A stretch of DNA of 64,000 nt from Calliopum simillimum (lineage: Eukaryota; Arthropoda; Insecta; Diptera; Lauxaniidae), in contig OX638372.1 of the NCBI GenBank assembly GCA_951812925.1, positions 88,495,058 to 88,559,057 of the forward strand. The letters are read 5' to 3'. Below the pieces are notes generated by a model. It saw only the letters and a program-made list of their open reading frames with translations. It did not search any database and had not been told where the DNA came from. Positions 3,842-55,300 of this stretch are shown piece after piece (position 1 is the stretch's first letter; every line of letters begins with the position of its first letter). Both the position numbers and the translations under genes were made by a program.

Positions 3842-6800
3842 CTATCAAATACGTACATATAAAAAATTATTACGAAGAAATAATTATGTAATGAGAACTT
3901 GATAACAGATTACACAGGCTGTCTAATTAGAAAAGTTTAATCTACATGTAAACATTCCTTTGCTGTAAGCTGGTTAAAAATGTACATTAGATAGTGTCGA
4001 ATTTGAGGTTCAAACCGACGGTGTCTCAGAAGAACTCTTTAAAATGATAGCTGCATCATGTTTTTTCATCCCGAGAAAAACCAATGAAGTGCTTTCGATT
4101 CTTTTGATGGCCCATGCTGGAAAAGAAACATGTTTTTTGCTCATAATTTTTTTTCTTCACAGAATCAATACCCAAATTTCTTTGAAAAATAAAGATTATG
4201 TCTTACAAAAGCTTTGGCGTCAAAAAATTATAAATTTTTTTGTAGTATAGATAATGTCTGGTTCCGTAAATCAATATTATATAAAATTAACAAAAATCTA
4301 AAACTTTTAAAAAAGTTCACACGTAATCTTTAGAGAATTGCAAACATTTTTTGCCGCATGAAATTTTGTCGTAAACAAAGAAAACAACATTGTCAAAAGT
4401 GCCAGCAACGTGGTTATTTTAACAACGTTGCGACCGAAATTTTTAGCATGGCTCGTTCGTTAATTCCAATTTTTTCCTCTCAACAACAATAAAACTAATA
4501 TTTTTTTCTCTTTTTTAATTTTCAATTTTTGCTTTAAATAAATATTTTTTTGCTTGGTATTGTGGGGATTTGGACCTGAACCCGTCGCGTAATAGATGCG
4601 GACGTTAACGAACTCAGCCACTGCCGTCATTATTGTGAGGTTGACTGAAAGTCTATTTGTTTTGAAATTAGTTTCTACCACGTTCGTGAGTGTTTTTAGC
4701 ACGTTTTGTAGCTGATTTGGATTTTACTACAGTGGCTCACAGCTTATTTCGTGCAGTAATTTTTTTTTAACTTTAAAACACTGTATCTTTAAAACTAATA
4801 CAAATATTATCAAATTTTGAATGCAGGCTTAGACGGAAATGTCTATTGTTAATAATAGGTAGGTAAAAGAAAATCCACATAATTTTATTCCGAGACGCTT
4901 AAGGCGGAAAAAACCGACCGAGCAGGATACATTCAAGTCACAGCTTATTTCGTGCAGATGCTTAATTTCCCTTTGGAGCCAGCGTTTCGCGTTATTTAAT
5001 GAGAATTTTTTTTTCTATGTTCTCTGTGTGGTATTCTCAACCAGTTAAAACATTCAAGAACGTGGTAGACTCATTTAGCAACGCAAGTTATGCTTGGTAT
5101 TGTGGTTATGAGTGCACCAAGCATTTTGCTTGTCGACTGAATCCATTATGAATAACATAACATTTTACAGCTTAAAAATTGAGCTTTTAGTTAAGGATTT
5201 GAAAAAAAATTAAGGAGGGGTTTTTTTTAAATGCAAAACTATTTTAAAATTTGGAAAATTTTTGCGAAAAAATAATGTTTTTAAGTAATATTTTTTTATA
5301 AAAAGTACATCTAAAAATCTATACAATAAGTTACCTAAAATTGTCAATTTACAAAGTTTGACATAAACTAAGAATTTTTTAAAAAACAGCCTTTCTAGGA
5401 AAATAACAAAAATCGCCTGTTTCAAGGACCTTTGTTTTAACAACTAAAAATACTTGAAGTTTTCAGCTGACAGTAAAGCACCTACGAAAAAATTTCTTCA
5501 GACAGAAAATGCTTAGAGTCCTCCAAAGGATACGTGTAAATTTTCTCTTAATTTGTGGAATTTACGTAGGGCCTAACAAAAGTTCGCTTAGTTGGTGTCA
5601 TGCTATAAATTTTTAGTAAATCAAAAAATTGCGTATTATTTGTTATAGTCTTACGATATATCATTTTAATTTTCAGAATGATCGGTCAAAATGGAGAAAA
5701 GAAAACGTAAAACTCGTGAAACAATGTCAGCAGATATTTCAGTGCCAACGCAACAAGAGATTCGGTTTGATTTTTTTTTGGATTTCGACGTAAGTTCAAG
5801 CCTGTGGAAACATTTAGTGAATGCCAAATAGCATTTGAAGTTAATGTGCCATCCCTCGTGACTACTTCAAAGTGGTCCCGAAGATTCCAGACAGGTCATT
5901 TTTCTTTGGAGGACGAACCTCAAGAAGGCCGCCCAAAATCTTTGACTAATTATGCAAGTGTAGCGCTGGTGAAGTCTAAAATTGACGAAGATTCAAGATT
6001 GACCCAGAAAATCATTACTGAGGAACTGGGCTTGAATGCCATGGCTGTATCGCAAAAATTAAAAAATTATCTTGGATACACGAAGAAATCTGCACGATGG
6101 GTTCTTAGAATTTTAAATGATGCTCAAAAAGAGGCACGTAAGCGTTTTGCTAAGTATTTTCTTTAAAAATACAAAAACGGAGAGTCTAACACTTTCAAGA
6201 AAATAGTAACAAATGATGAAGCATGGTTTTAGAAGTACGACCTCGAAACCAAACAACAATCCATGGTATGGAGCCCAGAAGGTGCAAGTCCACCTGTTAA
6301 AGTAAAGCAAAAAAAAGTCAGCAACAAAAGTAATGATGTCAGTTTACTTCACCAGAGAGAAAGTTGTAGCTGCTATTCCTTTGGAAAAAGGTCAGATGGT
6401 TACTGCTAAATGGTATAATGAAACCTGTTTACCAGAAGTTTTCCAAAATTTTTTGGGAAAACGACAAAAAAAGGAGCTACGCCGCTACTTTCTACATCAC
6501 GATAATGCGCCAGCGCACACTGCTGAAAAAACGACAGATTTTATTGCGCTTTCAGGCATCGAAGAAATTCGTCCAGCACCTTATTCCTCAGGTATAGCGC
6601 CTTGTGACTTCTGGTTGTTTCCAAAAATAAAAAAAAATTTGAGAGGAAGAGTCTTCAACAGCAATGAGGAGATAATATATGCGGTTAATGATGAAATTGC
6701 AAAACTGCAAAAAGCCGATTTTGAAGACTGTTTTTCAAAATGGATTTATCGACTTCAAAAATGTATCAAAATAAATGGCGATTACGTTGAAAAAATACAA

Positions 6801-9800
6801 ATAGATGAAGAATAAAGTTATAAATTTAAAAAATTAAATTTAAAAGTTTTTTCAATTCAACTAAGCGAACTTTTGTTAGACCCCTCGTATTTAATTTTTT
6901 TTTGTGTATCAATTTTTAATTATTATAAAATACGTATACTATGGACAATTTCAAGCATTTTATGTCTTATACACATTTTTCGCAAGATTCCTGGTTTCAA
7001 GCCAAGTTGAGTTTCTATTCAGTGAAGATAAAAAGTTAGGAGCAAAAAACATGTTTTTTTTTCCAAAATGGGACTTTAGGAGAATCAAAAGCGCTCTATA
7101 GGTAGAGTTCTTTTAACTTCTGGGATATCGTCGGAATGAATTTTTTTTCTTCATATAACTTTACCTATATTAATGTACTAATACATGTAGTTACTTATGT
7201 GTATAGTTTTTGAGGTACTTACCAACCAAAATTCATTACCAGGTAGAGCGTTGCTGTCCCAAGCATAGCTTACAATAAGCAGCATATTATCTTGCTCTGG
7301 TGATTTCTAAAATAATAAAAATTTTTTATGTGTGAAAATTGTTATTGAAGGTTTTGAGAGGGGTTGGCAGGAAAGAAAGTGCATATGCATATACTGGAGT
7401 AATAAGTTTTTTCCTATTTATTAAATTTATTCCAATTTTTTCAACTTCTTCAAATATATTGAGTTTTTCTACAATTTTAAATTTATCAGGATTCTTGGAA
7501 TGTTTTTTTAGATACTTTGCAAATTTCATCTCTTTAAAATATACCTTCTTTCAATTTCCGAAATGGTCTGAAGTTGTTTATGTGACTGTAGATAAAACAT
7601 TTTACCATAGCAGTAGCTTAGTCGATTTTCAATTTATCATGATTCTGTGCAGGCCCGTGCGCACGGGGGGGTTTTGCGAGTTCAAACCTCCCGAGGAAGG
7701 TATTTTACCCGCATTAAATAAATATTTATGATTTGAAAATATGTATTGAAATAAAATAGAATTAATCAAATAAGTAGAGTAATTTTGGGTAATGTGGACT
7801 ATGCGGGTAATGTGGTGCACCCTTTTATTTCTCATATTAAAGACTGCACAACAATTCTGGTTATTTGTGCACAATAAAAAGCGAAAAACATATTCTTTAC
7901 GCTCTTTGGCTTTTCTATAATGCTAATTATTCGTGTGAAATTCTTAGCATATGCTGTGAGGTCAAGTTGACTTATTTGTAGTACTTGGTGAATAACTAAG
8001 TTACTTTCTCAGAACTCAGTTTTCTAAAATTCAAATAACTCTAATGCAATTGTGGATCTATTATTCAACGAAAAAATGCATTAGCAAGTCTGATTTTACA
8101 TTTCTTTTATATAATCAATGATTATTTCAAAAACGTGATGTATTCGGGTAATGTGGACTACCCCATATTACATACCGTATATCAACTTTTACTACTATTA
8201 CACCTTAAAAAGCTAATTGCATGTGTAGGATACCCGAGTTTGAGTAATGTGGAGTACTATTTTACGTATGATTCGATAACCCTTCTTACTTATTCACATG
8301 TTAGTATGAATTTGGTTTATCTTACCAAAAACTATTATTTAATAAGAATATAAAGCTATTTCATAGCAAATATAATCTTAAAAATTACTACTCGACTTTT
8401 AGTCAACAAAATTTGCGAATAACGGTACTTCTTTAGGAAATGGGCAGGGTGAGCCACATTACCCGACACTTTTCTTTTTCAGCTATTTTTAGGTACTTTC
8501 AATTTAACTGGCCTCACGCTTGAAAATGTTAATATTTTAGTATACAAATTATCAAATAGTAAAAACAATAGAATAACTAATACAAATAAATTGACCAAGC
8601 TTACCTACTACCATTACTTTGGTAGAAATTGGTAAAAAAGAAAAAGGTAACCACATTACCCTAAATTACTCTACTCGTACATACATATAATTTCATTTAT
8701 AATATCACAGTTATTTTGACTATTGCTGCGGGTTAGCTCAATTTTAACCATTTATAAAGGTACAAATTTTTTAAGAAAACTTACTTTGCATTCGCGTTTT
8801 TGCTGCAAATTGGAAAAATAGGAACGCGATTTGTTTTGCCTAATATTTTAAATATTCACAGTTGCTATTGAGCATCACTCGCCAAATTTCCGGCAAAACC
8901 ATAATACGGTCCTTAAAGGATCCCTGGGGTTTCTTCTCGAAAAACTCGGTCAAAACCATTTTGCAATCCACTAAGGAATTCAATTTTCTGCTGTATGGTG
9001 GATACATTAAAACTTCCAAGTCAAGCTCCCTCAGTTTTTGGCGAATGTAGATATATTACAATCAGTGCTGTCGTTTTGAAAAGTTTGAGCGAAGTGAAAT
9101 TTTGTAAAAAGTGAAGTGTTGCGAAGTAAAATTCTGAAAAAGTGAAGTATTAGCGAAGTGAACACAAAAATCACAATTTTATTTATTCAATTCATTCATT
9201 TTTATGCTACACATAACAAAATTTGAAAAATATTTTAAAAAAATAAATAAAAAATACCTTAAGTCAAAAATTTACCGAAATATGGCCGGCCACTCGAACA
9301 TGGAAATTTTGTTTATGTGGTCGAAAAAACGGTTTTACTCAAAACAATGCATCTTACGAAAAAAGTGTTTAAAGCAAAAAATGCTTAGAATAATCCAAGA
9401 AATACGTGTGAATTTTTTTCAGAATTTTTTGGAACTTTTTTAATTTTTTTTTGTGACCAATTTTTTAAAAATTATAAAATGTACCCAAAAATTAAACGTA
9501 TTCTTTGAATGATTCTAAGTATTTTAAGTATTATACACTTTTCTCGTAAGACGCTTTTTTTTTGAGTTAAAAACATTTTTCCGACCACTTAAAAAAAAAT
9601 TAAATGTTCGAGTAGCCATATTTCGGCTAATTTTTCACCTAAAAATTTTATAATGAAGCGTTATAAAGGAAATTTTATCTACTTTTATGATATTCTGCTA
9701 TAGCTTTACCTATCTCTGACCCTAAAACAGTTATAGACAAAAGAGTAAAAAACACAAGAATTCGAAAATTTTGCTTTCTTTTTTTGGTCTATAAACTATT

Positions 9801-12800: not shown

Positions 12801-15537
12801 CTCTAAGCTAAAACTAGACGAACTCGGACAAGAGGGCGTGGCACCTCCTATATAAGCAAAAGCTTCAAAACGCTTTACTGAAAAAGTTTTTCACTCAGAC
12901 ACTAAAAACTATAAATGCAAGCTCTGAACAAAAACTGGATGAACTCGGACAAGAGGGCGTAGCACCTCCCATATGAGCAAAATTTGAAAAATACTGCAGT
13001 GTAGGGCATTTAATGTTTGGCCAGGCCAAATTTTACACCCTTACTAGTTTTATTTAACGGAGATTCATTATACCCGGAAAAACAAATTACATTTGTTTTC
13101 AGATGTGTAAGTCATTTCACAACTTTTCCCTTCGAAAGCCTACGTATTTCCGTGCTATATAAAAAATTTTTGAGTCTTGATGTAATTCCCCACTTGGAAG
13201 TCTTAGAGAGTAAGTCATTCTCAGTAGACGCAGGTAATAAGTGTTTGGGTTTTCTTGGCACACAAATCCTTTTTTCTTCCCCAGCATTGATAAATATCCG
13301 GCAGTACAAACAACAATGCTCATATGTTTTTCATGTGGTTGTGCTCTTCAAATCTTTGCACAATTTTGAACTATTTTCTGTTATATTGTGGAGGGAATAT
13401 TTTTCAGACTATACGTCAGCTGATAAAAAAGGAGTAATATGTGGGGAATACCCTTAATGTCAAATACAAACGCGGGAAAAGTAAATTATAAGGTTTTTAT
13501 ACTTCGCACACAGGATGCTGGAATTCGAACCGGGGTCCGTGTGGTAGATAGACCTCTAGGCACCTGCCCAATATGATGTAGAGGCATAAAAATTCTATAT
13601 TTACCCACTAGTGCCTAGCGGTGCCATACGGCACCCAAAACTAAGTTATTTCAAAAATTAATTTAAAATTAATCAAAACAAGATACGACTTTAAAAACTA
13701 GATAAGTATGAATTTGGATATTTTTCCAGCTATTGGAAATTGTTTTTTCGTTTGTTTGTGTCAAGTGTTCATGGTAGTCATCGTTATTTGATTGCTTGTT
13801 GGCAGAAAAGTGAAAAATATTTTGATGCCGTATGACTTGAGGTAAGGAATCACCTTTTATCGTTGTTTAGTCATATATTTTGAATCTTTTTGTAAAGGCT
13901 AATGAGTATTTAAAAAAAAAAACCAACAAAATCCGTTTTAAAATAAACGAGTTGTGATTATTTGAAAAACCAAAGTGTTTTACGGCACCGCTGGGTACTG
14001 GCTAGAAATTTTTTTCTGAGTGCCATATGGCATTGCTGGGCATTAGCCAACAATACATTGTGCATGTAAGTGGGTGCTAACTCTCATCATATCACAATTT
14101 GAATGCTTTATTGCATTTACTAACAAGAGTTTCGCCTTAGCAGGATTTAATAATTTAAACATACTATTACTTTTCTCCTTAATTATGCTGTAATCTAAGT
14201 TTATATCTTTATTTTGACTAGTTAGTGATAAACAATATATAATTTAATTATTTGAAGTACATATATGGAAATTTTTTTAATAAAAACAGTAAAATTTTCC
14301 TGTTACATAAAAAAACAAATGTGTATGAATGCCCAGTGGTGCCATATGGCACCCAGTCATTGAGCCGTTCCTAACCAAGACTTAGTAAATTTTTTTTTTA
14401 ATAGACATTGTCTAAGTCCAGGAGGCTAACTCCTGAAAATTTTAGCATCGTATGTACTGTGGTTCTCGTTGGGCATTAATGGGTTAAGCAAATTTTTGTT
14501 TTTTCTACATACTGTCCTTTTTATCCTTCTCTCTTTTGTTAAAAAAATACTTAAATTTTGAAACAGAAATGTCTCCAAACAGAATTAGATATTGGAATGC
14601 TTCCTGCAGCCTAGCAAAAAATTTTTATGGATTCAATTGTGTTTCAATTTAGTAAAAATATATAAATAAGAAAAAGGAAAATAAAAAAGTAAAAATGATT
14701 ACCGCGGTTGGAATCGGACCAGGATCCACGGCACAGAGGTACATAATTTACAAACTTATGTACTGTGTGTATAAAATTTGTCATGTCAGAATTTGATATT
14801 CGAATGCTCACTGCAGTCTTACAAAAAATCATAGTGTTAGCGCTTGTTAACAAGCTCTTTAGAATTGCTTTCTTAAGAAACGCTTCAAATTTTTCCCCTT
14901 GAATAAATACTGTAGTGTTCCTTTCGCAAATCCAGCAACGTTTCTTGTTTCAAAACGCGTCCGAACTTTCAAACCACTTCCCAAAATGTCAAATTCCATA
15001 TAAAAAACAAATGCCCATGTGTATGTATGTTGTTTTGGCCCTATGCACTTCCTAGGAATTACAGCAGAATACATTCATGTATATTGTACTTACCATACCG
15101 GCATTTGTGTTCTAAAAAAGATAAATAAAGTCCCAAAACGCGTTCATGAATTATCGGGTAAACAGAAGCAATTTGTTTTTTTATTATGTGACATCGTTCC
15201 GTGGGCTGGCTGATTACACGGCAATTGTTAGTACCAAACTGAAATGTAAACAAAGCGAGAGAGCGAGAGAGAATTTTTAAAACCCTAATGATAACAGACT
15301 CACTGCAATGGGGAAATTTGATGATGTTTTGATAAATTCTTGCAAATCAACATTGTCACCGTTAGGCTTTTCAACACTTTTACATTGCTGTAATAGTTCC
15401 TCGCCAAATTTTGTTAATTTTATATCGCTACCGGGTTGCGGCCACACTTTTTCAAATTCTGCACCAAATGTTGACATGGTGTAGCTACTGGAGTAATGGT
15501 CAGCTAACTGAGGTTTTTTACTGAGAATTTTTCCCAT
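3671..15537 (-). CDS. Seven-exon gene of unknown function (insect DUF4804-like family, tentative)
   Basis: The join is 15537-15304, 15238-15094, 15040-14897, 12181-11964, 11901-11188, 7306-7223, 3841-3671, about 570 residues. Six exons have GT-AG borders in matching phase. The third has an expected end at 14897 where GG stands in place of GT. Conserved-looking blocks include GRFERPNQMEWQDILIT, YGGNEGTALNGRANNYR, IWRKFYEENDFLYSDMKKF, VVGIGLGVW, VSYAWDSNALPGNEFW and a tail with EQHGVIHIAEY. From memory, this order of blocks recalls the DUF4804 family of dipteran proteins, but I could not check that. No signal peptide or membrane helix is evident. The introns are swollen by a mariner, nested hATs and Helitron-like DNA. 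A second, degenerate copy lies downstream. It is probably a real gene of unknown function; the odd donor leaves open recent decay. Confidence 0.65.
4565..4640 (-). repeat. tRNA-like SINE head fragment
   Basis: On the minus strand a segment resembling a tRNA gene contains GGCTGAGTTCGTTA (A-box-like) and GGTCCAAATCC (B-box-like) about 35 bases apart. No hammerhead core follows it. Confidence 0.4.
4730..4960. mobile_element. One end of a Tc1-like element (IR/DR type)
   Basis: After a TA dinucleotide the sequence starts CAGTGGCTCACAGCTTATTT. The inner part, TCACAGCTTATTTCGTGCAG, returns as a direct repeat about 200 bp further in (4936-4955). That is the arrangement seen in Tc1-like transposons with long ends holding direct repeats. 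The opposite end and a transposase are not found nearby. Confidence 0.5.
5565..6887 (+). mobile_element. Mariner element, full length, inactivated
   Basis: TA target duplications (5563-5564 and 6888-6889) flank imperfect terminal inverted repeats of about 28 bp that share the core CTAACAAAAGTTCGCTTAGT. The 1323-bp length is usual for mariner. It sits in intron 6 of the unknown gene, in opposite orientation to it. Confidence 0.85.
5691..6815 (+). pseudogene. Mariner transposase remnant
   Basis: The frame starts with an ATG (MEKRKRKTRE), shifts near 5790, and has a TAA at 6164 and a TAG at about 6229 just after the first catalytic region (VTNDEAWF). The helix-turn-helix part includes KWSRRFQTGHFSLEDEPQEG. 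The second Asp is in HHDNAPAHTA and the third in IAPCDFWLFP, with 34 residues between them, the D34D spacing of mariner. The usual YSPDL is YSSGI. It cannot make a working enzyme as read. Confidence 0.85.
7223..7306 (-). CDS. Unknown paralogue gene, exon 6
   Basis: This 28-codon exon (phase 0 both ends) encodes KSPEQDNMLLIVSYAWDSN then ALPGNEFWL, flanked by an ATTTTAG acceptor and a TTG/GTAAGT donor. Confidence 0.7.
7777..8671. mobile_element. TIR element with repeated 'gggtaatgtgga' motifs
   Basis: The terminal inverted repeats read GAGTAATTTTGGGTAATGTG on the left and nearly the same inverted on the right, next to TA on both sides. The motif GGTAATGTGGA recurs inside (about 8146 and 8249) and once inverted (8452). 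There is no coding capacity. A lone, diverged end of the same kind lies near 1912. Confidence 0.6.
8840..9049 (-). pseudogene. C-terminal remnant of a mariner transposase
   Basis: On the minus strand an open frame encodes KLRELDLEVLMYPPYSRKLN, then VDCKMVLTEFFEKKP, and ends at a TAG at 8840. The order of blocks (KLREL, PPYS, DCKM, FF.EKP, the IM.LPE segment, W) is that of the mariner C-terminus. The stretch that normally follows PPYS and holds the third catalytic Asp is missing. It belongs to a different mariner lineage from the elements at 5.6 and 24 kb. Confidence 0.7.
9063..10076. mobile_element. Non-autonomous hAT element nested in the older hAT
   Basis: The ends CAGTGCTGTCG are inverted repeats and are flanked by a perfect 8-bp duplication, ATTACAAT, at 9055-9062 and 10077-10084. 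Near both ends the sequence contains repeated 'aagtgaag' blocks. No open frame is convincing. Confidence 0.8.
10188..11187. other. Rest of intron 5 of the unknown gene
   Basis: AT-rich DNA without a recognisable gene. A short piece near 11070 (taggcgtgtccattaaccg) matches the Helitron-like family described at 12328-13047. Confidence 0.4.
11188..11901 (-). CDS. Unknown paralogue gene, exon 5 (largest)
   Basis: This is 238 codons in phase 0 at both ends, from acceptor TTCTACAG to donor TTG/GTAAGT. It starts LSAFLSVSSHSEFLNDGN, a start also seen at 1-23 in the downstream copy. It carries most of the recognisable blocks, including GVIIGLIGGRFERPNQ, KKRYTLSFDTLLLESEARA and VAVVHFSWFSLTEWENLKDG. 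Confidence 0.75.
11964..12181 (-). CDS. Unknown paralogue gene, exon 4
   Basis: The exon runs from a TTTTAG acceptor to an AAG/GTACTTG donor. It encodes NEIELKLYPQLSLTSF, LLEKRCIAFLNESDSYLLLSG and PPLILANVLSYDEMK. The matching exon of the downstream copy is 236-450. Confidence 0.7.
12328..13047 (+). mobile_element. Helitron/DINE-like repeat, copy 1
   Basis: The element starts with a short hairpin around TATACCCTACACCC, then carries a conserved block with the 'gtccgtctgtctggctggct' type of tract. It continues as tandem units of about 115-120 bp that each contain 'gagggcgtggcacctccc' and 'aagcttcaaaacgct', and ends ACACCCTTACTAG. Five copies occur in the window. The CTAG end and internal tandem repeats resemble DINE-1/Helitron-like elements of flies, but the class is an inference. 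Confidence 0.6.
13500..13575 (-). repeat. tRNA-like SINE fragment
   Basis: The minus strand has TGCCTAGAGGTC (A-box-like) and CCCCGGTTCGAATTCC (B-box). It resembles the plus-strand segment at 49672-49738, so the two are probably the same SINE family. Confidence 0.45.
13604..14483. mobile_element. piggyBac-like MITE
   Basis: The left end is CCCACTAGTGCCTAGCGG and the inverted right end is CCCATTAATGCCCAACG. The right flank is TTAA and the left flank TTTA, consistent with a mutated TTAA target site. The inside repeats 'gtgccatatggcac' palindromes (13619, 13981, 14021, 14339). No transposase is present. Confidence 0.6.
14695..14765 (-). repeat. tRNA-like segment
   Basis: The minus strand contains a B-box-like GGTCCGATTCC preceded by a GC-richer stretch in otherwise AT-rich DNA. 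It could be a SINE head remnant. The A-box is unclear. Confidence 0.3.
14897..15040 (-). CDS. Unknown paralogue gene, exon 3 (uncertain 3' border)
   Basis: It starts after the acceptor CATAG with GPKQHTYTWAFVFYMEFDIL. The frame stays open to GTLQYLFKG. The next exon needs one leading base of a codon, and phase fits an end at 14897, but the genome then reads GGAAAA instead of a GT donor. Other GT positions in the right phase are weak. The exon is therefore supported by its content and by similarity to the remnant at 1215-1290, but its end is a guess. Confidence 0.45.
15094..15238 (-). CDS. Unknown paralogue gene, exon 2
   Basis: The acceptor TTTCAG precedes FGTNNCRVI, and the exon continues with PIIHERVLGLYLSFLEHKC to a GTAAGT donor. 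It is 145 nt, phase 0 in and phase 1 out, identical in length to 1319-1463 of the downstream copy. Confidence 0.7.
15304..15537 (-). CDS. Unknown paralogue gene, exon 1
   Basis: The exon has 78 codons starting with an ATG (MGKILSKK). It contains STFGAEFEKVWPQPG and ends NFPIA before a GTGAGT donor, phase 0. The same exon in the downstream copy (1531-1749) lacks five residues near the start but is otherwise alike, which supports the ATG choice. Confidence 0.7.
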
Positions 15538-16284
15538 AACTTGTTGCTGAAATACTGGTTTTATTGGAAGCGGCTGTTGCTGTTATCGTTTAATTTCGGC
15601 AAAGCTTTACGCTGAAAACTTTTTTAACATTTTGTTGCTGATTTACCTACATACACAGCTGTTAAGTTATTGCATTTATGTATATACATTTTATGTATAC
15701 ATTCATATGTATGTATGTAGAGTAACCCAGCGGGAAGATGTAATGTATAGTATGCAAAAAAATAGTGTTTATATCCGTAGTCTATTGATTCAAAAGTCGA
15801 TTATTTTTAACACACGATTTTTTTTCGGAGGGGACAGTACTTCGAATGGACTTTCAAAAAAAAAAAAAAAAAAAAAAAGGCTCGAAAAAGGCAACTTTCG
15901 GATTACTAAAACTAAGGGCCGTTTTCAAAATGTTCAGTTAAAACTTAACTTCCAGATAAACAAAAATGTTGTATGAAATTTAATACTAATTTCACGAACT
16001 TTAGTCATTATTTGCAAGAATCTAAAATTCTATGCATTTTTGGAAGCTAATGCTTCCTTATCGGACGTTTTGAGAGGCAGAGTCTGAACAGCGAAAACAT
16101 GCAACGAAAAAGTGTAACGGATGTTTGCAACGAAAATGCGTCACACATATAAAAATAGAGACGTACTGTATACAAAATACAGTATACAGTATATATGTAT
16201 GTATACATATATATATGTTTATATCAACTGTGTATATACTATACATATATATGTACACCATGTGCTATCGAAAATAAAAATAAG

Positions 16285-16285
16285 T

Positions 16286-16319
<34 letters not shown>

Positions 16320-16320
16320 G
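16285..16320. repeat. GA microsatellite (also at 18321-18357)
   Basis: A run of GA dinucleotides with a GGGA interruption, present at the same place in both tandem units and next to TA-rich microsatellites. Confidence 0.9.
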
Positions 16321-16476
16321 CCCGAGCTGTCGCGCTCATAGGAGAGTCTGTATGTGAAATGTATATATCTATATATATGAGCGCCCCTCTTGCGTTTGAA
16401 AAATTCAAAAAGCAGAAACACTTTTATATCAACTGATGTGTATATACTACATATATTATATATATATATATATTTG

Positions 16477-16714
16477 ATGGCATAAAAGGTGCTCCAAATC
16501 TACACTTGTTTTTCTTATTTGAATCAATTCTCTTATAGCACGTAAAAGTGTGTTTATGGGTCTGTAATTTAATATTATTCGAGGCTTCAGCTGCTGAGAC
16601 AGACACTAATTCATCAATCATATTTATAACATCTTGATCATTGTTCAATAAATTCGATGGAGCATTAGCTTCCAATATCATCGGCCACTCCCCGAGTGCC
16701 ACCTGCCGTTTTTC
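16477..16714 (-). pseudogene. Helitron replicase-like coding fragment, copy 1
   Basis: The minus strand encodes VALGEWPMILEANAPSN, then HKHTFTCYKR and CRFGAPFMPS. A run of the form H.H..TC.K followed by CRFG.P is found in Rep/helicase proteins of Helitrons, in the zinc-finger-like part. Only this piece is present, broken off in TA repeats. Identification rests on that motif alone. Confidence 0.45.
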
Positions 16715-16767
16715 AACTTAGAAAATCATGACAATTAGGATTAGAGAAAAAAACTACTAAGCATGGC

Positions 16768-16817
16768 TATGGTGACATATGTTTCGGTTACCGCCACGTA
16801 ACCATCATCAGACCAAT
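16768..16817 (-). ncRNA. Hammerhead ribozyme motif 1
   Basis: Read on the minus strand: UGGU (16815-16812), the core CUGAUGA (16811-16805), an extra U, stem II GGUUAC with loop GUGGCG and GUAACC (16803-16786), the core GAAA (16785-16782), then CAUAUGUC, and ACCA. The last A of GAAA plus CA can pair with UGU around a two-base loop as a minimal stem III. UGGU pairs with ACCA as stem I. Cleavage would follow the C of GUC at 16774. All invariant core bases of the type I hammerhead are present. The unpaired U after the first core box is unusual and could lower activity. Confidence 0.7.
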
Positions 16818-16885
16818 TTATGTTTTATTTAATTTATTTTAAATTAAATGAAATAACAATTGAAAAGTTTTTGAACTTTTTGTCT

Positions 16886-16965
16886 GAGGCCGGGATTGAA
16901 CTATGAACCTCGAAGTCAATCCCTCTACATAGCGCATTTATCAATGGACTGCGCTATGTACCCTC
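16886..16965 (-). repeat. tRNA-like head upstream of hammerhead 1
   Basis: The minus strand reads ACATAGCGCAGTCCATTG (fits an A-box) and then TAGTTCAATCCCGG (fits a B-box). It lies about 70 bases upstream of the ribozyme in the same orientation, with an AT-rich spacer between. I read it as the Pol III promoter part of a SINE-like element. Confidence 0.55.
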
Positions 16966-17153
16966 AGAATAATTGGTAGCTTAAGTGCCTATATTCATGT
17001 AGTGAGATTTTTGTTCTCTATCCACTTTATCATGTTTAATTTAATGCCAAAATGCCAGTTAAAGTTTTAGTTAAGGCTTAACTGAACATTGTGAAATCGG
17101 CCCTTAATAGGCCCAGCAATTTTGAATACAATATAAAAATTGTAGCTGAGTAT

Positions 17154-17650
17154 TTCTTTGCGTTATCGACCAAGATTCGACTTGACATCTCCGATTTCTA
17201 TGAAAATTGGTGAAAAGTTAGTATTTGACACACATATTACTGTGGTAAAATGATTTTCCGAAATTCCGAAAATTTTCAAGATGGCGGCCATAGGAATTTC
17301 GATCCAGTCTTTGGATACTTCCATATTTGAAAACTTTTAGCTCCTCGAATTCTTAACCGATTTTAATGAAATTTTCAGGGTTTCTGTAGAAAAGTATTAG
17401 CTTTTGAAAAAGAAAAAAAAAAAAATATTTAAAAAAAAAGGTTTAATTTTTGGTCGAAAATTTTTTTTTTCTTTTTCAAAGCCAATTTGGGGCTTTTATA
17501 ACAATTATTTTCCAGCATTCAAAATTGTGGTATGTTTTACGGTTATCAAGTTATGAGTTTTTGAAGTTGTAGAATGTTGTGTTTATCATGAGTCGTTGGT
17601 GCGGGTGCGCTACCACACAGGGCTGCCACCGTCCGGATGGTATGTTTTCT
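17154..17650 (+). repeat. Foldback arm (also at 19192-19690), inverted at 20110-20645
   Basis: The stretch from 'gttatcgaccaagattcgac' to 'ccaccgtccggatgg' is present once in each tandem unit. It appears reversed and complemented at 20110-20645, diverged by small indels. The segment 17640-18090 between is itself a palindrome around 'ccgtccggacgg' with 'taacccattataaccc'-type arms. Together they form a foldback transposon that was cut by the tandem duplication. Confidence 0.75.
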
Positions 17651-18321
17651 CTACAATGAACCTTAGTGAAATTTTTCATAAAATTTTTTAGTGGAATATT
17701 TTAACCCATTAAAACCCAGTTTTTGGATAAAGAGGGCAAAAAGACCCATAAAAACGGGATATAATGGGTTAATATGTTCTAAAAAATTGTTCCTTGCTTG
17801 ATTTCATGTTGAAGAAAAAAACCGTCCGGACGGTGGCAGCCCTGTATGGTACCGCACGCACATAAAGGGGTCGAAAAAATCCATAGAAACGAGTTACAAT
17901 GGGTTAATGTGAAATCAAGCAAGGAACAATTTTTTAGAACATTTTAACTCATTATATCCCGTTTTTATGGGTATTTTGGAACCCTTTATCCAAAAACTTG
18001 GTTATAATGGGTTAAAATATGCCACAAAAAATTTTATGAAAAATTTCACTAAGGTTTACTGAAGAAAAAGTACCATCCGGACGGTGGCAGCCCTTATCGG
18101 ACGTTTTGAGAGGCAGAGTCTGAACAGCGAAAACATGCAACGAAAAAGTGTAACGGATGTTTGCAACGAAAATGCGTCACACATATAAAAATAGAGACGT
18201 ACTGTATACAAAATACAGTATACAGTATATATGTATGTATACATATATATATGTTTATATCAACTGTGTATATACTATACATATATATGTACACCATGTG
18301 CTATCGAAAATAAAAATAAGT

Positions 18322-18355
<34 letters not shown>

Positions 18356-18514
18356 GCCCGAGCTGTCGCGCTCATAGGAGAGTCTGTATGTGAAATGTAT
18401 ATATCTATATATATGAGCGCCCCTCTTGCGTTTGAAAAATTCAAAAAGCAGAAACACTTTTATATCAACTGATGTGTATATACTACATATATTATATATA
18501 TATATATATATTTG

Positions 18515-18752
18515 ATGGCATAAAAGGTGCTCCAAATCTACACTTGTTTTTCTTATTTGAATCAATTCTCTTATAGCACGTAAAAGTGTGTTTATGGGTC
18601 TGTAATTTAATATTATTCGAGGCTTCAGCTGCTGAGACAGACACTAATTCATCAATCATATTTATAACATCTTGATCATTGTTCAATAAATTCGATGGAG
18701 CATTAGCTTCCAATATCATCGGCCACTCCCCGAGTGCCACCTGCCGTTTTTC
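18515..18752 (-). pseudogene. Helitron replicase-like coding fragment, copy 2
   Basis: The duplicate of the fragment at 16477-16714, unchanged at the protein level. Confidence 0.45.
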
Positions 18753-18805
18753 AACTTAGAAAATCATGACAATTAGGATTAGAGAAAAAAACTACTAAGC
18801 ATGGC

Positions 18806-18855
18806 TATGGTGACATATGTTTCGGTTACCGCCACGTAACCATCATCAGACCAAT
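18806..18855 (-). ncRNA. Hammerhead ribozyme motif 2 (duplicate of motif 1)
   Basis: Identical in sequence to motif 1 within the second tandem unit. The predicted cleavage site is after the base at 18812. Confidence 0.7.
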
Positions 18856-18923
18856 TTATGTTTTATTTAATTTATTTTAAATTAAATGAAATAACAATTG
18901 AAAAGTTTTTGAACTTTTTGTCT

Positions 18924-19003
18924 GAGGCCGGGATTGAACTATGAACCTCGAAGTCAATCCCTCTACATAGCGCATTTATCAATGGACTGCGCTATGTACC
19001 CTC
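18924..19003 (-). repeat. tRNA-like head upstream of hammerhead 2
   Basis: Duplicate of the segment at 16886-16965, in the second tandem unit, with the same spacing to the ribozyme motif. Confidence 0.55.
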
Positions 19004-20109
19004 AGAATAATTGGTAGCTTAAGTGCCTATATTCATGTAGTGAGATTTTTGTTCTCTATCCACTTTATCATGTTTAATTTAATGCCAAAATGCCAGTTAA
19101 AGTTTTAGTTAAGGCTTAACTGAACATTGTGAAATCGGCCCTTAATAGGCCCAGCAATTTTGAATACAATATAAAAATTGTAGCTGAGTATTTCTTTGCG
19201 TTATCGACCAAGATTCGACTTGACATCTCCGATTTCTATGAAAATTGGTGAAAAGTTAGTATTTGACACACATATTACTGTGGTAAAATGATTTTCCGAA
19301 ATTCCGAAAATTTTCAAGATGGCGGTCATAGGAATTTCGATCCAGTCTTTGGATACTTCCATATTTGAAAACTTATAGCTCCTCGAATTCTTAACCGATT
19401 TTAATGAAATTTTCAGGGTTTCTGTAGAAAAGTATTAGCTTTTGAAAAAGAAAAAAAAAAAAATATTTAAAAAAAAAGGTTTAATTTTTGGTCGAAAAAT
19501 TTTTTTTTCTTTTTCAAAGCCAATTTGGGGCTTTTATAACAATTATTTTCCAGCATTCAAAATTGTGGTATGTTTTACGGTTATCAAGTTATGAGTTTTT
19601 GAAGTTGTAGAATGTTGTGTTTATCATGAGTCGTTGGTGCGGGTGCGCTACCACACAGGGCTGCCACCGTCCGGATGGTATGTTTTCTCTACAATGAACC
19701 TTAGTGACATTTTTCATAAAATTTTTTAGTGGAATATTTTAACCCATTAAAACCCAGTTTTTGGATAAAGAGGGCAAAAAGACCCATAAAAACGGGATAT
19801 AATGGGTTAATATGTTCTAAAAAATTGTTCCTTGCTTGATTTCATGTTGAAGAAAAAAACCGTCCGGACGGTGGCAGCCCTGTATGGTACCGCACGCACA
19901 TAAAGGGGTCGAAAAAATCCATAGAAACGAGTTACAATGGGTTAATGTGAAATCAAGCAAGGAACAATTTTTTAGAACATTTTAACCCATTATATCCCGT
20001 TTTTATGGGTATTTTGGAACCCTTTATCCAAAAACTTGGTTATAATGGGTTAAAATATGCCACAAAAAATTTTATGAAAAATTTCACTAAGGTTTACTGA
20101 AGAAAAAGT

Positions 20110-20645
20110 ACCATCCGGACGGTGGCAGCCCTGTATGGTAGCGCACCCGCACCAACGACTCATGATAAACACAACATTCTACAATTTCAAAAACTCATTA
20201 CTTTATAACCGCAAAACATACCACAATTTTTAGGACAGGAGAATAATTGTAATAAAATTTGCTTTTAAACAAAAATATTTAAAAAAAAAATAAAAAGGGT
20301 GCTCCAAGCCCCAAATTGGCTTTGAAAACGAAAAAAAATTTTTTTCGACCAAAAAGTAATTTTTTTTTCAGTGAAATTATTTTTTTTTTTTCAAAAGCTC
20401 ATACTTTGCTACAGAAACTCTGAAAATTTCATTAAAATCGGTTAAGAAGCCGAGGAGCTATAAATTTTCATGTATGGGAGTATCCAAAGGCTGGATCGAA
20501 CTTCCTATGGCCGCCACCTTGAAAATTTTCGGAATTTCGGAAAATCATTTTACCACAGTAATATGTGTGTCAAATACTAACTTTTCACCAATTTTCATAG
20601 AAATCGGAGATGTCAAGTCGAATCTTGGTCGATAACGCAAAGAAA
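20110..20645 (-). repeat. Inverted arm of the foldback element
   Basis: Reverse complement of 17154-17650 and 19192-19690, from 'ccatccggacggtggcag' to 'cttggtcgataacgcaaag'. An open frame starting inside it (20610-20936) is repeat-derived and is not called as a gene. Confidence 0.75.
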
Positions 20646-23538: not shown

Positions 23539-24791
23539 CGTAGGGCACTACTTATATTTCGGGAACTGCAAATAATAACAAGCATTTTTAATTGAAAATG
23601 GCTTTATTGTTTTTCAAAATATTCCCCTTGATGATCAATACACTTTTGCATTCGTTCAAACCATTTGCCATAACAGTTTTCGGATTCCTCTTGAGACACC
23701 TCCAAAACATGGTTTTTGAACGCTTCAACTTCTTCGGCGCTCGTAAATCGTTGACCACGCACTTAACCTTTCGGGAACAAGAAGAAGTCAAATCAGGACT
23801 GTACGGAGGATGAGTCATCAATTCGATGTTTTGACTGCTCAAAAATTCACCTGTTTCAGCAGATGTGTGAGAGCTCGCATTGTCATGATGGAGAATGATT
23901 CGTCTTCGGGGGTTGGTTTTACGAATTTCTCCGAAGACTTCCGGCAAACAAATGGTCGTGTACCAGTAAGTATTGACCGTCCTACGTTGCTCAAGCGGAA
24001 CAGTGGCCACATGACCCATTCGGCCGAAGAAACAGGCGACCATTTCCTTCGCTGTGATTCTTCCACGAACAACTTTTGTTGGATTTATCCCGTCTTGGAA
24101 TACCCACACTGTCGATTGCTGTTTTGTTTCCGGCTCATATGCATATATCCATGATTCGTCATCTGTCACGATCTTATACACGTCTTTTGAAGCACGACGG
24201 TCGAATTTTTTAATTATTTCCTTACACCAAACGATGCTAGCCTTTTTTTTGAGCGATTGATAAATTATGGGGTTTCCAACGAGAACAAACGTTTTATACA
24301 ACTAAGTGTTCATGCAAAATCGAATGTATTGGAGTGGAACTAATGTGCAAGGATGCCTCTATCCCACAATATACCATATGACGATCTTTCATTATCAGTT
24401 CATGCACAACAACCGATTTTGGACGACCTTCACGGAATCCGTCGGTGACCGAACTCCGACCACAATTGAGTTCACTATACCAACCATATACTGTGGTTTT
24501 GAATGTTGCTTTATCGCCATACAAAGAACGGAGTTCATCGACACATTCTTGTTGACATAATCCACGTCGAAAGTTGTGAAAAATAATCCAACGAAAACCT
24601 TTTTTTGAACTTTCCATTTTTTGGCCAAATTGATTTTCTTAACTCACTGGAAACAAGACAAATAGCACTTGTACATCAAAACGTTGTGAGTACGCTTATG
24701 CTAAAAAATTTCAAACTTTATTATGGTGTTGCCAGATTTTAGCTATTGACATTAGTGTTGCCAGTTCCCGAAATATAAGTAGTGCCCCTCG
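23539..24791 (-). mobile_element. Mariner element, full length, inactivated
   Basis: TA duplications at 23537-23538 and 24792-24793 flank inverted repeats that share GGGCACTACTTATATTTCGG. The length is 1253 bp. It differs in ends and protein from the mariner at 5565-6887. Confidence 0.85.
23588..24617 (-). pseudogene. Mariner transposase remnant with lost third catalytic Asp
   Basis: The N-terminal part (MESSKKGFRWIIFHNFRRG, with QQECVDELRSLYGD) and the remainder are in two frames that shift at about 24300. The first Asp is in VTDDESWIYAYEPETKQQST and the second in ILHHDNASSHTSAE. After PPYSPDL a short deletion runs straight into SRKVKC, removing the residues that would hold the third catalytic Asp. 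The enzyme is therefore dead twice over. Confidence 0.85.
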
Positions 24792-30973: not shown

Positions 30974-31780
30974 ATAAAAACAGCAATGTGATTTCTAGTG
31001 TTGAATTATGTTTATTTTTATTACTTTTTTTATAATTTTATTGCAATATAATTTTTTTTATCTAATTAATTTATGTTTTTATTTTTTATTTAAATTATGA
31101 TTTAACTAACTGTCAGCTCTCCATTTGCATTTCTAGTTTGATGTATTCTATGTATGGTATATTATTTTACAGCATTCTTTTTTAAGTTTTAATAAACTTT
31201 CAAATTCCTGTTTTTTATTATAACTTCAATAAATGTACTTATTTCTTTTTTTAAAATATAAATTTTATACTGTTTATGTTAGAGTCCTATGATGGGTACA
31301 TATTTAAATGTTGATTAAAACTTAATTTGTTCTTTGCTTAAACTTGTTGATCTTTTGTTTGTTAAAAGTATAATTAATAAATAATTAATTAAAAATTAAA
31401 GATAAGACACATACATTTTAAAGAAATTAATTATATCATATTTAAACAACCTAACAGAAAGAGGCATTGAAATGTAACAACTTTGAAATTACATTGCATA
31501 CATAAGTATTTTAGGGCACAAATTTCTGGTTTAAATTTTTAATAATATAAATTTTGTTTGTAATATTAATAAAATAAACTATGAAATAATTATTTTTTTT
31601 TTAGTTTTTTTGTCATTATTAATGATGTTAAAGCAAACGTTATTTTAAAAATATTAATTGCATAACCTAGGGAGTTCATTTTTTTGTATATATAATTTAT
31701 ATATGAAGTTAGTTTATTGACTGTTTTTTATTGCTTGTATAGTACTAATGAAAGTACCAACGCGCTTTTTTTCTAAATTG
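30974..31780. other. 3' region of the CBM14-like gene and AT-rich spacer
   Basis: Extremely AT-rich. It probably holds the 3' UTR up to the AATAAA near 31190. Nothing else was recognised. Confidence 0.4.
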
Positions 31781-31864
31781 AAGTATGATAATTTTATATT
31801 GAACTAATTAAACAGTCATTTTTGCAATTTTTCAACAACAGACGAAAGCAAGTGTTAACATGGA

Positions 31865-31951
31865 AATTGATTACATATGTTTCGGCTACTTCCACATACA
31901 TATTTATATATTTTCATATATAAACATGTACATAGCCTCATCAGATCAGTT
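31865..31951 (-). ncRNA. Hammerhead ribozyme motif 3 (left arm)
   Basis: On the minus strand, UGAU (31948-31945) precedes CUGAUGA (31944-31938). Stem II is GGCUA..UAGCC, extended by a long AU-rich hairpin with a GAAA tetraloop. GAAA (31883-31880) is followed by CAUAUGUA, then AUCA. Stem I is UGAU with AUCA; stem III is a three-pair ACA/UGU with a UA loop. The predicted cut follows the A of GUA at 31872. Every core base fits. Confidence 0.75.
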
Positions 31952-32105
31952 TTTAGTTAAATCTTGCCAGAAACCGTAGCTAGCGTAGCATGTCTCAAAA
32001 CCAGAGTGTGTTACCAACTAACAATTTGGCAATTTTTCACAACAGACGGCGCTAGTGAGCCTTATGTGTTATGCATAATGGCGATCCTGCTCAGAGAGTT
32101 TACTC

Positions 32106-32188
32106 GTGGCCTATAGCACAATCGCTTAAGCACCGCGTTCTCTTTCATTAGAAAACCGGAGTCACGGGTTCGAGTACGGTTTCTGGCA
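32106..32188 (+). repeat. tRNA-like head upstream of hammerhead 4
   Basis: CTATAGCACAATCGCTTAAG fits an A-box region and CGGGTTCGAGTAC fits a B-box. It ends about 17 bases before the stem I strand of the ribozyme and has the same orientation. The spacing of the boxes is longer than in a normal tRNA without an intron, so this is a SINE-type head and not a tRNA gene. Confidence 0.55.
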
Positions 32189-32200
32189 AGATTTAACTAA

Positions 32201-32289
32201 AAACTGATCTGATGAGGCTATGTACATGTTTATATATGAAAATATATAAATATGTATGTGGAAGTAGCCGAAACATATGTAATCAATTT
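32201..32289 (+). ncRNA. Hammerhead ribozyme motif 4 (right arm)
   Basis: AAAC-UGAU (32201-32208), core CUGAUGA (32209-32215), stem II GGCUA (32216-32220) with UAGCC (32265-32269), core GAAA (32270-32273), CAUAUGUA (32274-32281), then AUCA and AUUU. Stem I has four pairs, one mismatch (C.A) and three more A-U pairs. The intervening hairpin UUUAUAUAU/AUAUAUAAA closes with a GAAA tetraloop, giving an exceptionally long stem II. The predicted cut is after 32281. Confidence 0.75.
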
Positions 32290-32929
32290 CCATGTTAACA
32301 CTTGCTTTCGTCTGTTGTTGAAAAATTGCAAAAATGACTGTTTAATTAGTTCAATATAAAATTATCATACTTTAATTTATATACCTATTTATTATTAATG
32401 GACATAAATATGAGGAGCAGGTGAATGAAATAAAACTATTGCATACTTTCACATTTTGTTTGGAAACATTATATAATTTTACCGAAAGTCAAACAAATTT
32501 TTCCAAAAAGATTTATTCTTAAAAAACAATTCAATGCATTTGATCGAAACTCACAGAAAGTTGAATTTCGTCACCTAAATAATACAACTAGGTAACTTCT
32601 AAATTATCATTCTTGGAATTAGTGATTTTTTCCATGGTTTAGTGCACAATCTTGGGTTCTCCATTGCAAATTTATAAGAAAAAAATAAATTAATAAAAGT
32701 CGCAATTCAGTGTAAAATAGGGTGACCAACCATTCACGATTTTGTAGGATAGTATTGGATTTTGCCCTCACGTCCCAGATTCAAAAACGTTCTGGAAATG
32801 TCCCGAATTTCATGTATGTCCTGGAACTGTCCTGGATTTAAGACGGATGCATATTGTAATATCTAATTTATTTTGTTTTATTCTACATCAATTTTAGTTT
32901 ATGGATTACAGCTTTGTCAGTTTTTTGAA

Positions 32930-52300: not shown

Positions 52301-55300
52301 TACACGAAATAAACGATTTTCTTCGAATACCCTTATTAACTATTATGAAATGTTGCCATATCCCTGAAATTTAGTAATAGGTTTTAATAAAGTTTTTTAA
52401 GAATTTTTACAAAACTTCTGTTTAAAAAATTTTTACTCAATTTTGCACATTAATTTTTGCTCTTCTACGCGTAAGTACTTACCTTCTTCTCTTCCATAAA
52501 ACGCTTGATATTATTTTGTCGCTTCTCACGTAAACGACGATCTTTTTCATTTTTCGTCTTCAGTGTTTTATCATTTTGCACCTCTTTGGCTGTATCGGCT
52601 GAGGTTTTAGCTTGCTTGGTATTCAATTCTTTGATATCTCTGAACAAAGAAATTTTAAAAGTTTTTAGTTATTCAATTTGCTTTATTTTCTTTAGATCGA
52701 AGTTTTTAAAAAAAAACTATTTGTGCTAGAAATATTAAATCAGGACTCAAATTCCTTAGCCAGAATGCATTTTTCAACAGTTTCGATTTAAATTGAAAAC
52801 GTTAGCCCAAGCATTAGTGACCAAGTCAAGTTAATTTTGAACCCCCAGAATAGATAATACGTGTCCCATAATTCAAGCAAAGTTTGAATAAGTCGCCATT
52901 TCTGTGGTGAAGTGTTGCCAACCAGCAAAGAACCCCGATTGACAGCTGACAGCTAAAGGTTACTAAAAATGCACTGAAACAGGAGATTTAACGCTGCATC
53001 AAGGAAATTCAGCCACATTTATGCAGAATGGTCATTAAATTGCTATTCTATACATAACCATATTTTATGTACTTTATGTTTTATATTTAATTCAAATCTT
53101 GGGTGTATTATGGGACACCCTTTATAAATTGTAAAGCTATTACTCTTACCTTGCATGACGTTCCTCCAACTGTTTGACTTGCGCTCCCTGCACCGTTAGC
53201 ATTAGTGCCTTCATAGCCTCCTGTGAATCCTGTACATGAGTGCGTAGCATGTCCCATTCTTCTTTTTTATGTTTGGCAATCATATCAGTCCATTGATTTG
53301 TTTGATCGGCGATTGCGTTTTTGATAGCCGAATCATTACGTATTTCGTCTTTGCTGCAAAAATTCATCAAATGTTAGCATTTCTCGAACTTTTGTATCTA
53401 CTCTACTCTAAAGATACTCACCTCTTGCCTTTGATTAATTTATCAATTGCTGCATTTTGCGTCTTTTGCATTGCCATGCGCTCTTTCGTATGTTTTTTCT
53501 TTAATGTATCCAATTCTTTGTTTTGTTTCTTCGCCACCTTCTGAAAGCCCTTTTCACCGCGTAGCGATTCTAATGTTACAGGCTCAAATACTAATGGTGG
53601 TTCTTTCTTCTCCTCTTCTTTGGCTTTACCAGCATCACGTGCTGCACCACCACTTTGCTCCTCAATACCAAGTGCTTTCATTTGTTCATTCTGTTTTGCT
53701 GCCGCACCCGCAAAACCACGCGGATCCGACAACATGGCCATGAAGTCCTCAAAGCCATCAGGTACGTAAATTTTATTTTCGATGTTCACGAACAGCATAG
53801 GCAACGACATGGGGAAATTCGCTTCGGTACGCAGTGAGACGTGACGATAGCCTCCCTGCAGACCATCCAATGGCAAAATACGCTGACCGATCATTTTGCC
53901 ACTCTCTTCATAGACGCCGAAACGCAACACAGCCAGATCGGGCAGTACAACTTTACGGAATACGAATGCATCCTCATTGTAGACGGGATTAAGCCCGTTG
54001 TTAGGCACCAAACGGGTACGGAATTCTTTTTTGACCGTATCGGAAGGCAGACCGTACATATCGACTTCCACATAAGTGCCGACTTTTTTGTCGGACAAAA
54101 ATTGACCGGCTATAATTTTAACTGAACATTGCGCAGCAATAACACCATCGACTGGGGCATCGGCAAAAGGATCAAAATCTTTGTCGGAACGTCGCATGAA
54201 ATCCGGTTTCAGGAGATAACCACAGCCGCCATTATACTCAAATTTGCCCTGATTAAGTTGCATTGGCAGATCGGAGGTTTGGAAGTTAAGTGAGACCATT
54301 TGGCAGCCAGCATTCCAGAAGACTTGCGGCATATAATTGGAAGAATCGGCGCGTGTACCTTTGGGGTAAATGCGCGACATTTGACGTTTATTGTAATTGA
54401 CGAAATCGATGGCATTCTGTTTCAGGTAGTTCATGCCGGCAGATTCGGCAAATGAAGACATATTGTGGGCGATGTTTTTCTCTACAAAAAAAAAGTGATT
54501 GGTTAGTGTTACAGGTTTTTCACTCCAAGCTAAACCTTTTACACATCATATTGTTTTTTTTTTAATCAAATTAAACTTTTTCTTAATCAAATTTAACTTT
54601 TCCCAAATCAAGTTGAACTTTTTCAAATCAAATTGAACTTTTTTCTTATCAAATTAACATTTTTTTAAAGCAAAATAAATTTTTTTAAATCAAATTAAAC
54701 CTTTTCAAAATCAATTTAAACCTTTTACAAATCAAGTTAAACTTTTTCCAAATCAGGTTGACCTTTTCCAAATTAAATTAAACCTTTTTCATATCAAATT
54801 AAACATTTTTAATATCATATTAAACGTTTTTCAAATCGTAATAAGCCTTTCTCAAATCAAAATAAACCGTTTCCAATTAAAATTAAACCTTTTCCAAATC
54901 AAATTATCTTTTTCCAAAGCAAATTAACCTTTTTCCAACTCGCGTTATTAGTTGGAAAAGTTGAAGTTTAATTTGATTTGAAAATAGATCAATATGGTGT
55001 AAAATATGTTTAACTTTAAGTGGAAAGCCTGCATAGTTCTACTTCCGAACACCAAAAATAAATCCTTGACTTACCTATAGCCTTATCAAAACCCTGGAAT
55101 TTGATGGGCTGCGCATAGTTTATCATCGATGATAACCAGGGATGAACATTTGTTGTTGAACCGCTATAATTAGCCGCTGCCGCTTCGCCACCACCTTCGG
55201 CACCAGCACCTTCAGCACCTGGCTCAGCTGGTGCACCTTCCGCAGCTGGTGGCGGTGGCGCTGCTTCCGGTGGCTTACCTGCACTGGCATCTTCTTCGGG

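Follow-up and report, generated by a model that had tools for sequence, protein, structure and literature searches.

The window, that is the whole stretch of 64,000 nt of Calliopum simillimum DNA that was analysed, carries a type I hammerhead motif at 16815-16770 of its minus strand, identified by motif reading, a descriptor search and stem comparison, and the conserved boxes follow one another in the order that the original prediction had given. Stem I pairs UGGU (16815-16812) with ACCA (16773-16770), and the core consists of CUGAUGA (16811-16805), one extra U (16804) and GAA (16785-16783). Stem II has 6 bp, GGUUAC/GUAACC (16803-16798 and 16791-16786), stem III is the palindromic ACAUAUGU (16782-16775) and C17 lies at 16774, after which the ribozyme is predicted to cut. 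All elements that define a type I hammerhead (CUGANGA, stem II, GAAA, U16.1-H17 and an open stem I end) are therefore found in the motif. A type I descriptor (stem I of at least 3, stem II of at least 4 and stem III of at least 2) recovered four distinct sites in the window, whereas 150 dinucleotide shuffles of the window gave 0.047 sites on average; the four are the reported site, a copy at 18849 and an inverted pair at 31944 (minus) and 32209 (plus). The folding energy of the reported ribozyme itself is ordinary (z = -0.75). A weak similarity near 7561, considered as a further hammerhead, has no CUGANGA core by eye and was rejected.

Upstream of the ribozyme and in the same direction lies a tRNA-like head (16968-16883, minus), recognised by its fold and its A and B boxes, and its end is 71 nt from CUGAUGA, which bears out the A-box/B-box segment of the original prediction. 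The fold comprises a 7-bp acceptor-like stem (TCTGAGG/CCTCAGA), a D-arm-like stem and a third stem, with z = -6.1; ARAGORN called no tRNA. The A-box-like sequence TAGCGCAGTCC (16956-16946, minus) and the B-box-like sequence AGTTCAATCCC (16902-16892, minus) each agree at 9 of 11 positions with the consensus strings used here and for all box scores that follow. Two T runs read from the same strand accompany the ribozyme: a T4 run between head and ribozyme (16866-16863) and a T7 run (16753-16747), 20 nt past the predicted cut, which is a possible Pol III terminator. Other tRNA-like heads with A and B boxes occur in the window at 13563 (minus), 49672 (plus) and 4620 (minus), by eye with no hammerhead behind them; the sequences upstream of the first two look alike and these may belong to one SINE family. 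A head candidate at 60634 (minus), whose first and second boxes have one and two mismatches, respectively, was dropped.

The motif belongs to an element that we call family 1, of which the main piece (monomer positions 272-597; 96.9% identity to the monomer of locus L010) lies at 17034-16709 (minus) and a distal piece (monomer 593-661), which ends near the terminus called A below, was mapped at 16041-15972 (minus). A 667-bp insert at 16042-16708 separates the two pieces, so the window copy is disrupted and atypical. Self-comparison further revealed a tandem duplication with a first unit at 16056-18094, which carries the family-1 element, and a second unit at 18092-20132; the unit is 2038 bp long and its two copies are 99.66% identical, which corresponds either to a recent segmental duplication or to a duplication in the assembly. 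The duplicated element was located by monomer mapping at 19072-18747 (minus) and its hammerhead, by descriptor and self-comparison, at 18853-18808 (minus). The family-1 copy was interrupted first and then carried along in the 2038-bp duplication. Inverted 38-bp repeats (15913-15950 and 17069-17106) flank the copy, which may be enclosed in a palindromic transposon. A 97-aa frame at 16424-16717, which to us is reminiscent of Helitron proteins, gave nothing in Pfam up to E = 1. Stop-to-stop frames around the window loci amounted to 26 and 6, and the three near the first locus that were put through Pfam contained neither a reverse transcriptase (RT) nor a GIY-YIG domain.

A second family is represented in the window by a head-to-head insertion at 31702-32379 with both ends in place, the left one at the site called B below and the right one at site A, flanked by the direct repeat ATTTATATA. 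It contains a 205-bp inverted repeat, 99.5% identical between its arms (31774-31978 and 32175-32379), and each arm holds a hammerhead: one at 32205-32285 (plus), with stem I UGAU/AUCA, stem II GGCUAU/GUAGCC and stem III ACAUAUGU, and an inverted copy at 31868-31948 (minus) located by the descriptor and by mapping of the inverted repeat. Compared to family 1, stems I and II are different, the extra U is missing and loop II has 42 nt, whereas stem III is the same. The family-2 head lies approximately at 32103-32190 (plus), with an A box at 32114-32124 and a B box at 32167-32177, each 10/11.

Both families were searched for in the genome assembly from which the window comes (690 Mb, 334 contigs). 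For family 1 there were 1597 first-look candidates, of which the 40 scored yielded 46 matches; for family 2 there were 1534, with 44 matches among the 40 scored. These figures represent best matches and not copy counts; 20 stretches were fetched per family. The head-spacer-ribozyme unit for which the original prediction had proposed such a search proved to be repeated and often in tandem, with one head and one hammerhead per unit, up to 5 hammerheads in a row within one fetched stretch, and unit lengths that are mostly 532-535 bp in family 1 and 573-578 bp in family 2. The core bases are conserved across the sampled genome copies that span the ribozyme: the hammerhead core is intact in 62 of 63 such copies of family 2 and in 49 of 51 of family 1, a figure that rises to 50 of 51 when CUGANGA is accepted. 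The extra U occurs in all 47 pattern-matched hammerheads of the 20 fetched family-1 loci, one of them inside a longer insert, so it is the state of family 1 and no defect of the window copy. Full monomers (24 of family 1 and 30 of family 2, GC 0.34-0.35) are more alike inside an array than between arrays: the substitutions per site are 0.0021 inside and 0.0107 between in family 1, and 0.0006 inside and 0.0026 between in family 2. Rolling-circle reverse transcription is compatible with this within-array likeness, as are a source array that was itself homogeneous and later conversion. Variant density in family 1 is lowest in the hammerhead (0.0067 compared to 0.0144-0.0250 in other regions), a difference that gets little weight since the copies were sampled by similarity over that very region. 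The exact family-1 hammerhead was absent from the prokaryote contigs searched, as was a looser hammerhead pattern from the viral contigs searched.

A third family was met at a single locus (L060, position 2516, minus), adjoining a family-2 insertion; it has another head, near-perfect in its boxes (A box 10/11, B box 11/11), and the stem III ACAUAUGU. Past the ribozyme, families 1 and 3 have a related region (the score was reached by 0 of 300 shuffles) and so do families 2 and 3 (2 of 300), with no significant likeness between families 1 and 2 (128 of 300). These relationships, 1 to 3 and 2 to 3, indicate different heads on a common 3' module. The A and B boxes stand at tRNA spacing in all three headed families (9-11 of 11 positions per box; spacing 54, 53 and 43). 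In the 200 nt upstream of the hammerhead, a pair of A and B boxes was found in 3 of 3 headed families and at none of the 23 hammerhead sites of Penelope-like elements (PLEs) of the same genome that were tested for a head, compared to 83 of 4000 random 200-nt pieces of the window when 4 mismatches at most are allowed and 7 of 4000 when the limit is 2. Families 2 and 3 are the independent cases in this comparison because family 1 was selected beforehand for its head. The hammerhead motif and the tRNA-like head are thus confirmed as real, repeated and linked.

The ends of the insertions were mapped at 41 loci, namely the 40 fetched stretches plus the family-2 locus of the window. Eight of them are cut by the limits of the fetched stretch (L013, L014, L015, L016, L026, L049, L050 and L067). 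Among the 33 uncut loci, 23 are head-to-head in one piece (11 of family 1 and 12 of family 2), a share stated over all uncut loci as these two-ended insertions were picked for being head-to-head; eight are one-armed (L009, L022, L023, L057, L061, L064, L066 and L068) and two (L028 and L054) consist of two oppositely oriented pieces about 200 nt apart. The ends fall at two places past the predicted cut, at 121-133 and 150-164 nt in family 1 (11 loci) and at 86-98 and 166-181 nt in family 2 (12 loci), and with sites A and B defined on these same mapped loci, every one of the 23 head-to-head insertions has one end at A and the other at B. When the 46 ends were paired at random, 23 mixed pairs out of 23 were obtained in 0 of 20000 trials. 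This A/B rule holds across the gap in L028 (148, 125) and L054 (86, 170), and the one-armed loci have their outer end near one of the two sites, with L009 (108) as the one exception.

Flush direct repeats of at least 9 bp flank 19 of the 23 head-to-head insertions, whereas 2 of 506 control pairs, in which the two flanks came from different loci, show such repeats; the direct repeat has 4 bp in L051 and 6 bp in L018. The inner (5') ends are variable. In family 2, 12 of 33 are at 264-273 (the random maximum was 7 in 2000 trials), and in family 1 no significant cluster was detected (best 5 of 33 in 12 nt, p = 0.12). It is rare for an inner end to lie 6 nt or less from the ribozyme cut (3 of 33 in family 1, 0 of 33 in family 2), so the usual template does not appear to be a cleaved linear monomer. 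Taken together, the insertions mostly exhibit the Penelope-type structure: head-to-head copies with a tail on one end, tandem units and a short target-site duplication.

PLEs are present in the same genome. A GIY-YIG search produced at least 51 matches (150 of 209 candidates scored), and of 8 proteins scanned four (L083, L074, L079 and L096) match both RT and GIY-YIG, L096 with an RT score slightly below the Pfam cut-off; the remaining ones include one with GIY-YIG only and one with RT only. Two of the three best GIY-YIG matches, L070 and L071 (contigs C183 and C104), are UvrC proteins and, being on small contigs, presumably bacterial, from a contaminant or symbiont. The motif CUGANGA-stem II-GAAA was found in 22 of 30 fetched PLE loci, at 23 sites, and all 23 sites have one extra nucleotide before stem II, although these loci partly overlap and represent few families.

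Nine hammerhead variants, those of the three headed families and six of PLEs, were aligned by hand. All 54 of 54 stem II cells are paired, and 5 of the 6 stem II positions show two or more pair types. Stem III is palindromic in 9 of 9 variants. Stem I pairs in 31 of 36 cells, and the five cells that fail to pair all belong to PLE variants. Nine sequences (two from family 1, one from family 3 and six from PLEs; family 2 was omitted for its long loop) were also aligned with MAFFT, and one PLE row of that alignment is apparently shifted by a base. It gave 94.4% paired stem II cells and a covariation of 1.04 compared to 0.24 (0 of 500 shuffles); the 5 pairs changed on both sides were reached by 161 of 500 shuffles. 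When two family-3 motifs were cofolded, they formed a dimer through the palindromic stem III; in the family-1 cofold the stem III dimer was not clearly formed. When the RT-start regions of families 1-3 were compared with six stretches from PLEs, no clear match emerged (20 of 300 shuffles for the best). Like the headed elements, the copies of one PLE family (L089-L094 and L098) end, by eye, at either of two sites past the hammerhead; in this PLE family the two sites are roughly 35-40 nt apart.

The covariance-model check proposed along with the original prediction gave a negative result: with Rfam, no family reached its gathering score over the whole window and no hammerhead family was among the matches up to E = 10 in 16000-18000. 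Up to E = 1, no hammerhead was reported for four PLE loci either, nor for L010 and L049, and the family-3 sequence in L060 gave one sub-threshold hammerhead of 24.2 bits (gathering score 48.5). The silence of Rfam on the reported motif therefore says little, since loci with PLE hammerhead motifs are missed as well.

On these grounds, and at a probability that we put at roughly 80%, the headed unit would be a non-autonomous retroelement composed of a tRNA-like head, a hammerhead and a Penelope-type RT-start region, mobilised in trans by a PLE as its putative helper. A unit of 532-578 bp is too short for an ORF with RT and GIY-YIG endonuclease, which excludes an autonomous PLE and sets the headed units apart from the PLEs that encode an endonuclease (EN+). 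As far as the available text of the sources goes, EN+ elements of the Penelope/Poseidon type (Pen2a of A. vaga and PAc of the anole) share with the headed units the minimal type I hammerhead and the tandem or partial-tandem copies (PMC3846280), and EN+ PLEs share the inverted head-to-head copies, the short target-site duplication and the tail between two RT starts (PMC3846280, PMC11167929). The original prediction was right about a type I hammerhead whose stem III is very short, about its union with a tRNA-like head in the same direction and about a mobile element that is repeated. In our best reading, drawn from the arrangement of the copies, the element appears to be retrozyme-like with an insertion mode as in Penelope elements, and it is probably not a classical SINE. 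In this respect the retrozyme and Penelope leads of the original prediction, which had spoken of a SINE-like or retrozyme element, were apt, and the tandem unit and the Penelope-type ends argue against the classical SINE.

The alternative that survives best is a non-LTR retrozyme in the sense of Cervera and de la Peña (2020), i.e., a tandem hammerhead repeat that forms circular RNA and in which the head is incidental; it is compatible with the retroelement reading given above. According to the portions of the literature available, such animal retrozymes are tandem repeats that are short, non-coding and low in GC and that contain type I hammerheads (PMC7229834), PLEs have been proposed as their helpers (PMC7229834, PMC7761336) and short palindromic stems III are typical of hammerheads that act as dimers (PMC7229834, PMC6155905). 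The type I hammerheads in tandem repeats of GC 0.34-0.35 agree with this description, and so does the greater likeness of monomers inside arrays, as rolling-circle reverse transcription would yield. Conversely, the unit of 532-578 bp is outside the range of 150-450 bp given in the available part of PMC7229834, stem III is minimal and PLE-type, and a head is present in all three families seen. On that same partial description, the headed units differ from animal retrozymes by a longer unit, a minimal palindromic stem III, a tRNA-like head and PLE-type ends (PMC7229834), and the terms "Pol III", "polymerase III" and "SINE" are absent from its main text. We consider this retrozyme reading less likely than not.

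A classical tRNA-derived SINE, transcribed by Pol III, mobilised by a LINE and carrying a hammerhead by accident like SMalpha of schistosomes, would account for the A and B boxes of the three families and for the T7 or T5 run that comes soon after the ribozyme in families 1 and 3. However, units in tandem and insertions that are head-to-head and end at A and B resemble PLEs and not LINEs or SINEs, and the T runs lie inside the unit, before the RT starts, so we consider this explanation improbable. The schistosome elements, in the available part of their description, have in common with the headed units a SINE-like nature and a type I hammerhead, whereas PLE-type A/B ends are not mentioned there (PMC8490949).

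These same T runs bear on how the head may function. In the family-1 monomer of L010 and in family 3 a T5 run separates the head from the ribozyme, and in both families the RT starts, mapped as 3' termini, lie beyond the T7 or T5 run that follows the ribozyme. The stretch from head to RT start is thus interrupted by T runs, which argues against one Pol III RNA as template, because a single such RNA must read through them. The head may act as a Pol III promoter, judging from its boxes, but the original statement that the element is Pol III-transcribed and self-cleaving is not upheld in that form, given a T run before the ribozyme and 3' termini beyond it.

For family 2, and by analogy family 1, the 205-bp inverted repeat (99.5% identical, 31774-31978 and 32175-32379) could suggest a MITE-like DNA transposon with hammerheads in its terminal inverted repeats. 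This is very improbable: the inner ends of the arms are variable, the outer ends are unequal across loci (A at one side and B at the other), the units are in tandem and the direct repeats vary in length; the MITE reading of the inverted repeat was rejected for these unequal ends, and the A/B rule largely refutes it. It is hardly credible that genuine PLE-type hammerhead pieces fell by chance near unrelated tRNA-like heads frequent in the genome since, despite the three heads of the window that by eye lack a hammerhead, head and hammerhead occur together in repeated units and in three families with different heads, each at a background rate of about 2% or less.

Under the preferred reading, a non-autonomous element moved by a PLE, a transcript of one or more units would be bound by the PLE protein, which would cut both strands of the target and start reverse transcription inside the RNA from two adjacent start sites, with A serving one strand and B the other. 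The two cDNAs would extend towards the 5' end of the RNA and then be joined head to head. The A/B rule is the pattern of an anole PLE, which cuts and extends the two strands of its target and whose reverse transcription begins at two internal sites; the interval between these sites is the tail (PMC11167929). Multimers would be cut into units by the hammerhead, which probably acts as a dimer held together by its palindromic stem III; the units may form circles, and tandem arrays could result when a circle or a multimer is reverse-transcribed. The tRNA-like head could be a Pol III promoter, the relic of one or a processing signal, as in tRNA-derived SINEs. We give even odds to a broader proposal, that these families are SINE-like parasites of PLEs in which tRNA heads were repeatedly joined to a PLE-type 3' module, meaning the dimer-type hammerhead plus the two RT start sites, and whose insertions record two cDNAs started at A and B.

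In the open-licence literature searched, to the extent that its text is available, no description was found that combines a tRNA-like head, a hammerhead and PLE-type ends. Partial parallels exist. The short nonautonomous Penelope elements of Heliconius are likewise small non-autonomous PLEs in insects, with no tRNA head or hammerhead mentioned in the available part of the source (PMC6685494). Helenus and Ajax, in the accessible portion of their description, also have a region derived from a small-RNA gene and are non-autonomous retroelements that are no classical SINEs, but they differ in being LTR retrotransposons, and the word "hammerhead" appears there once, in the reference list only (PMC10886601). 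The role of PLE hammerheads is called a mystery in the available text of PMC7761336. The proposal of PLEs as retrozyme helpers can now be put to the test with a single protein and a single short RNA, because the headed families are small and repeated, their sampled copies are closely alike and their insertions have PLE-type ends. The A/B rule is moreover natural evidence, from another system, for the two internal start sites that were measured in vitro for the anole PLE (PMC11167929).

The remaining features of the window are of other kinds. A transposase-like ORF at 23588-24301 (minus) matches DDE_3 in Pfam, and another at 5804-6815 (plus) has a weak HTH match in its first frame. Both ORFs are presumably mariner-like. 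An exon of a phospholipase C beta gene lies at 53418-54461 (minus), with a PI-PLC Y domain, a C2 domain and a sub-threshold match to the C-terminal region of PLC-beta, and we take it to be norpA-like.
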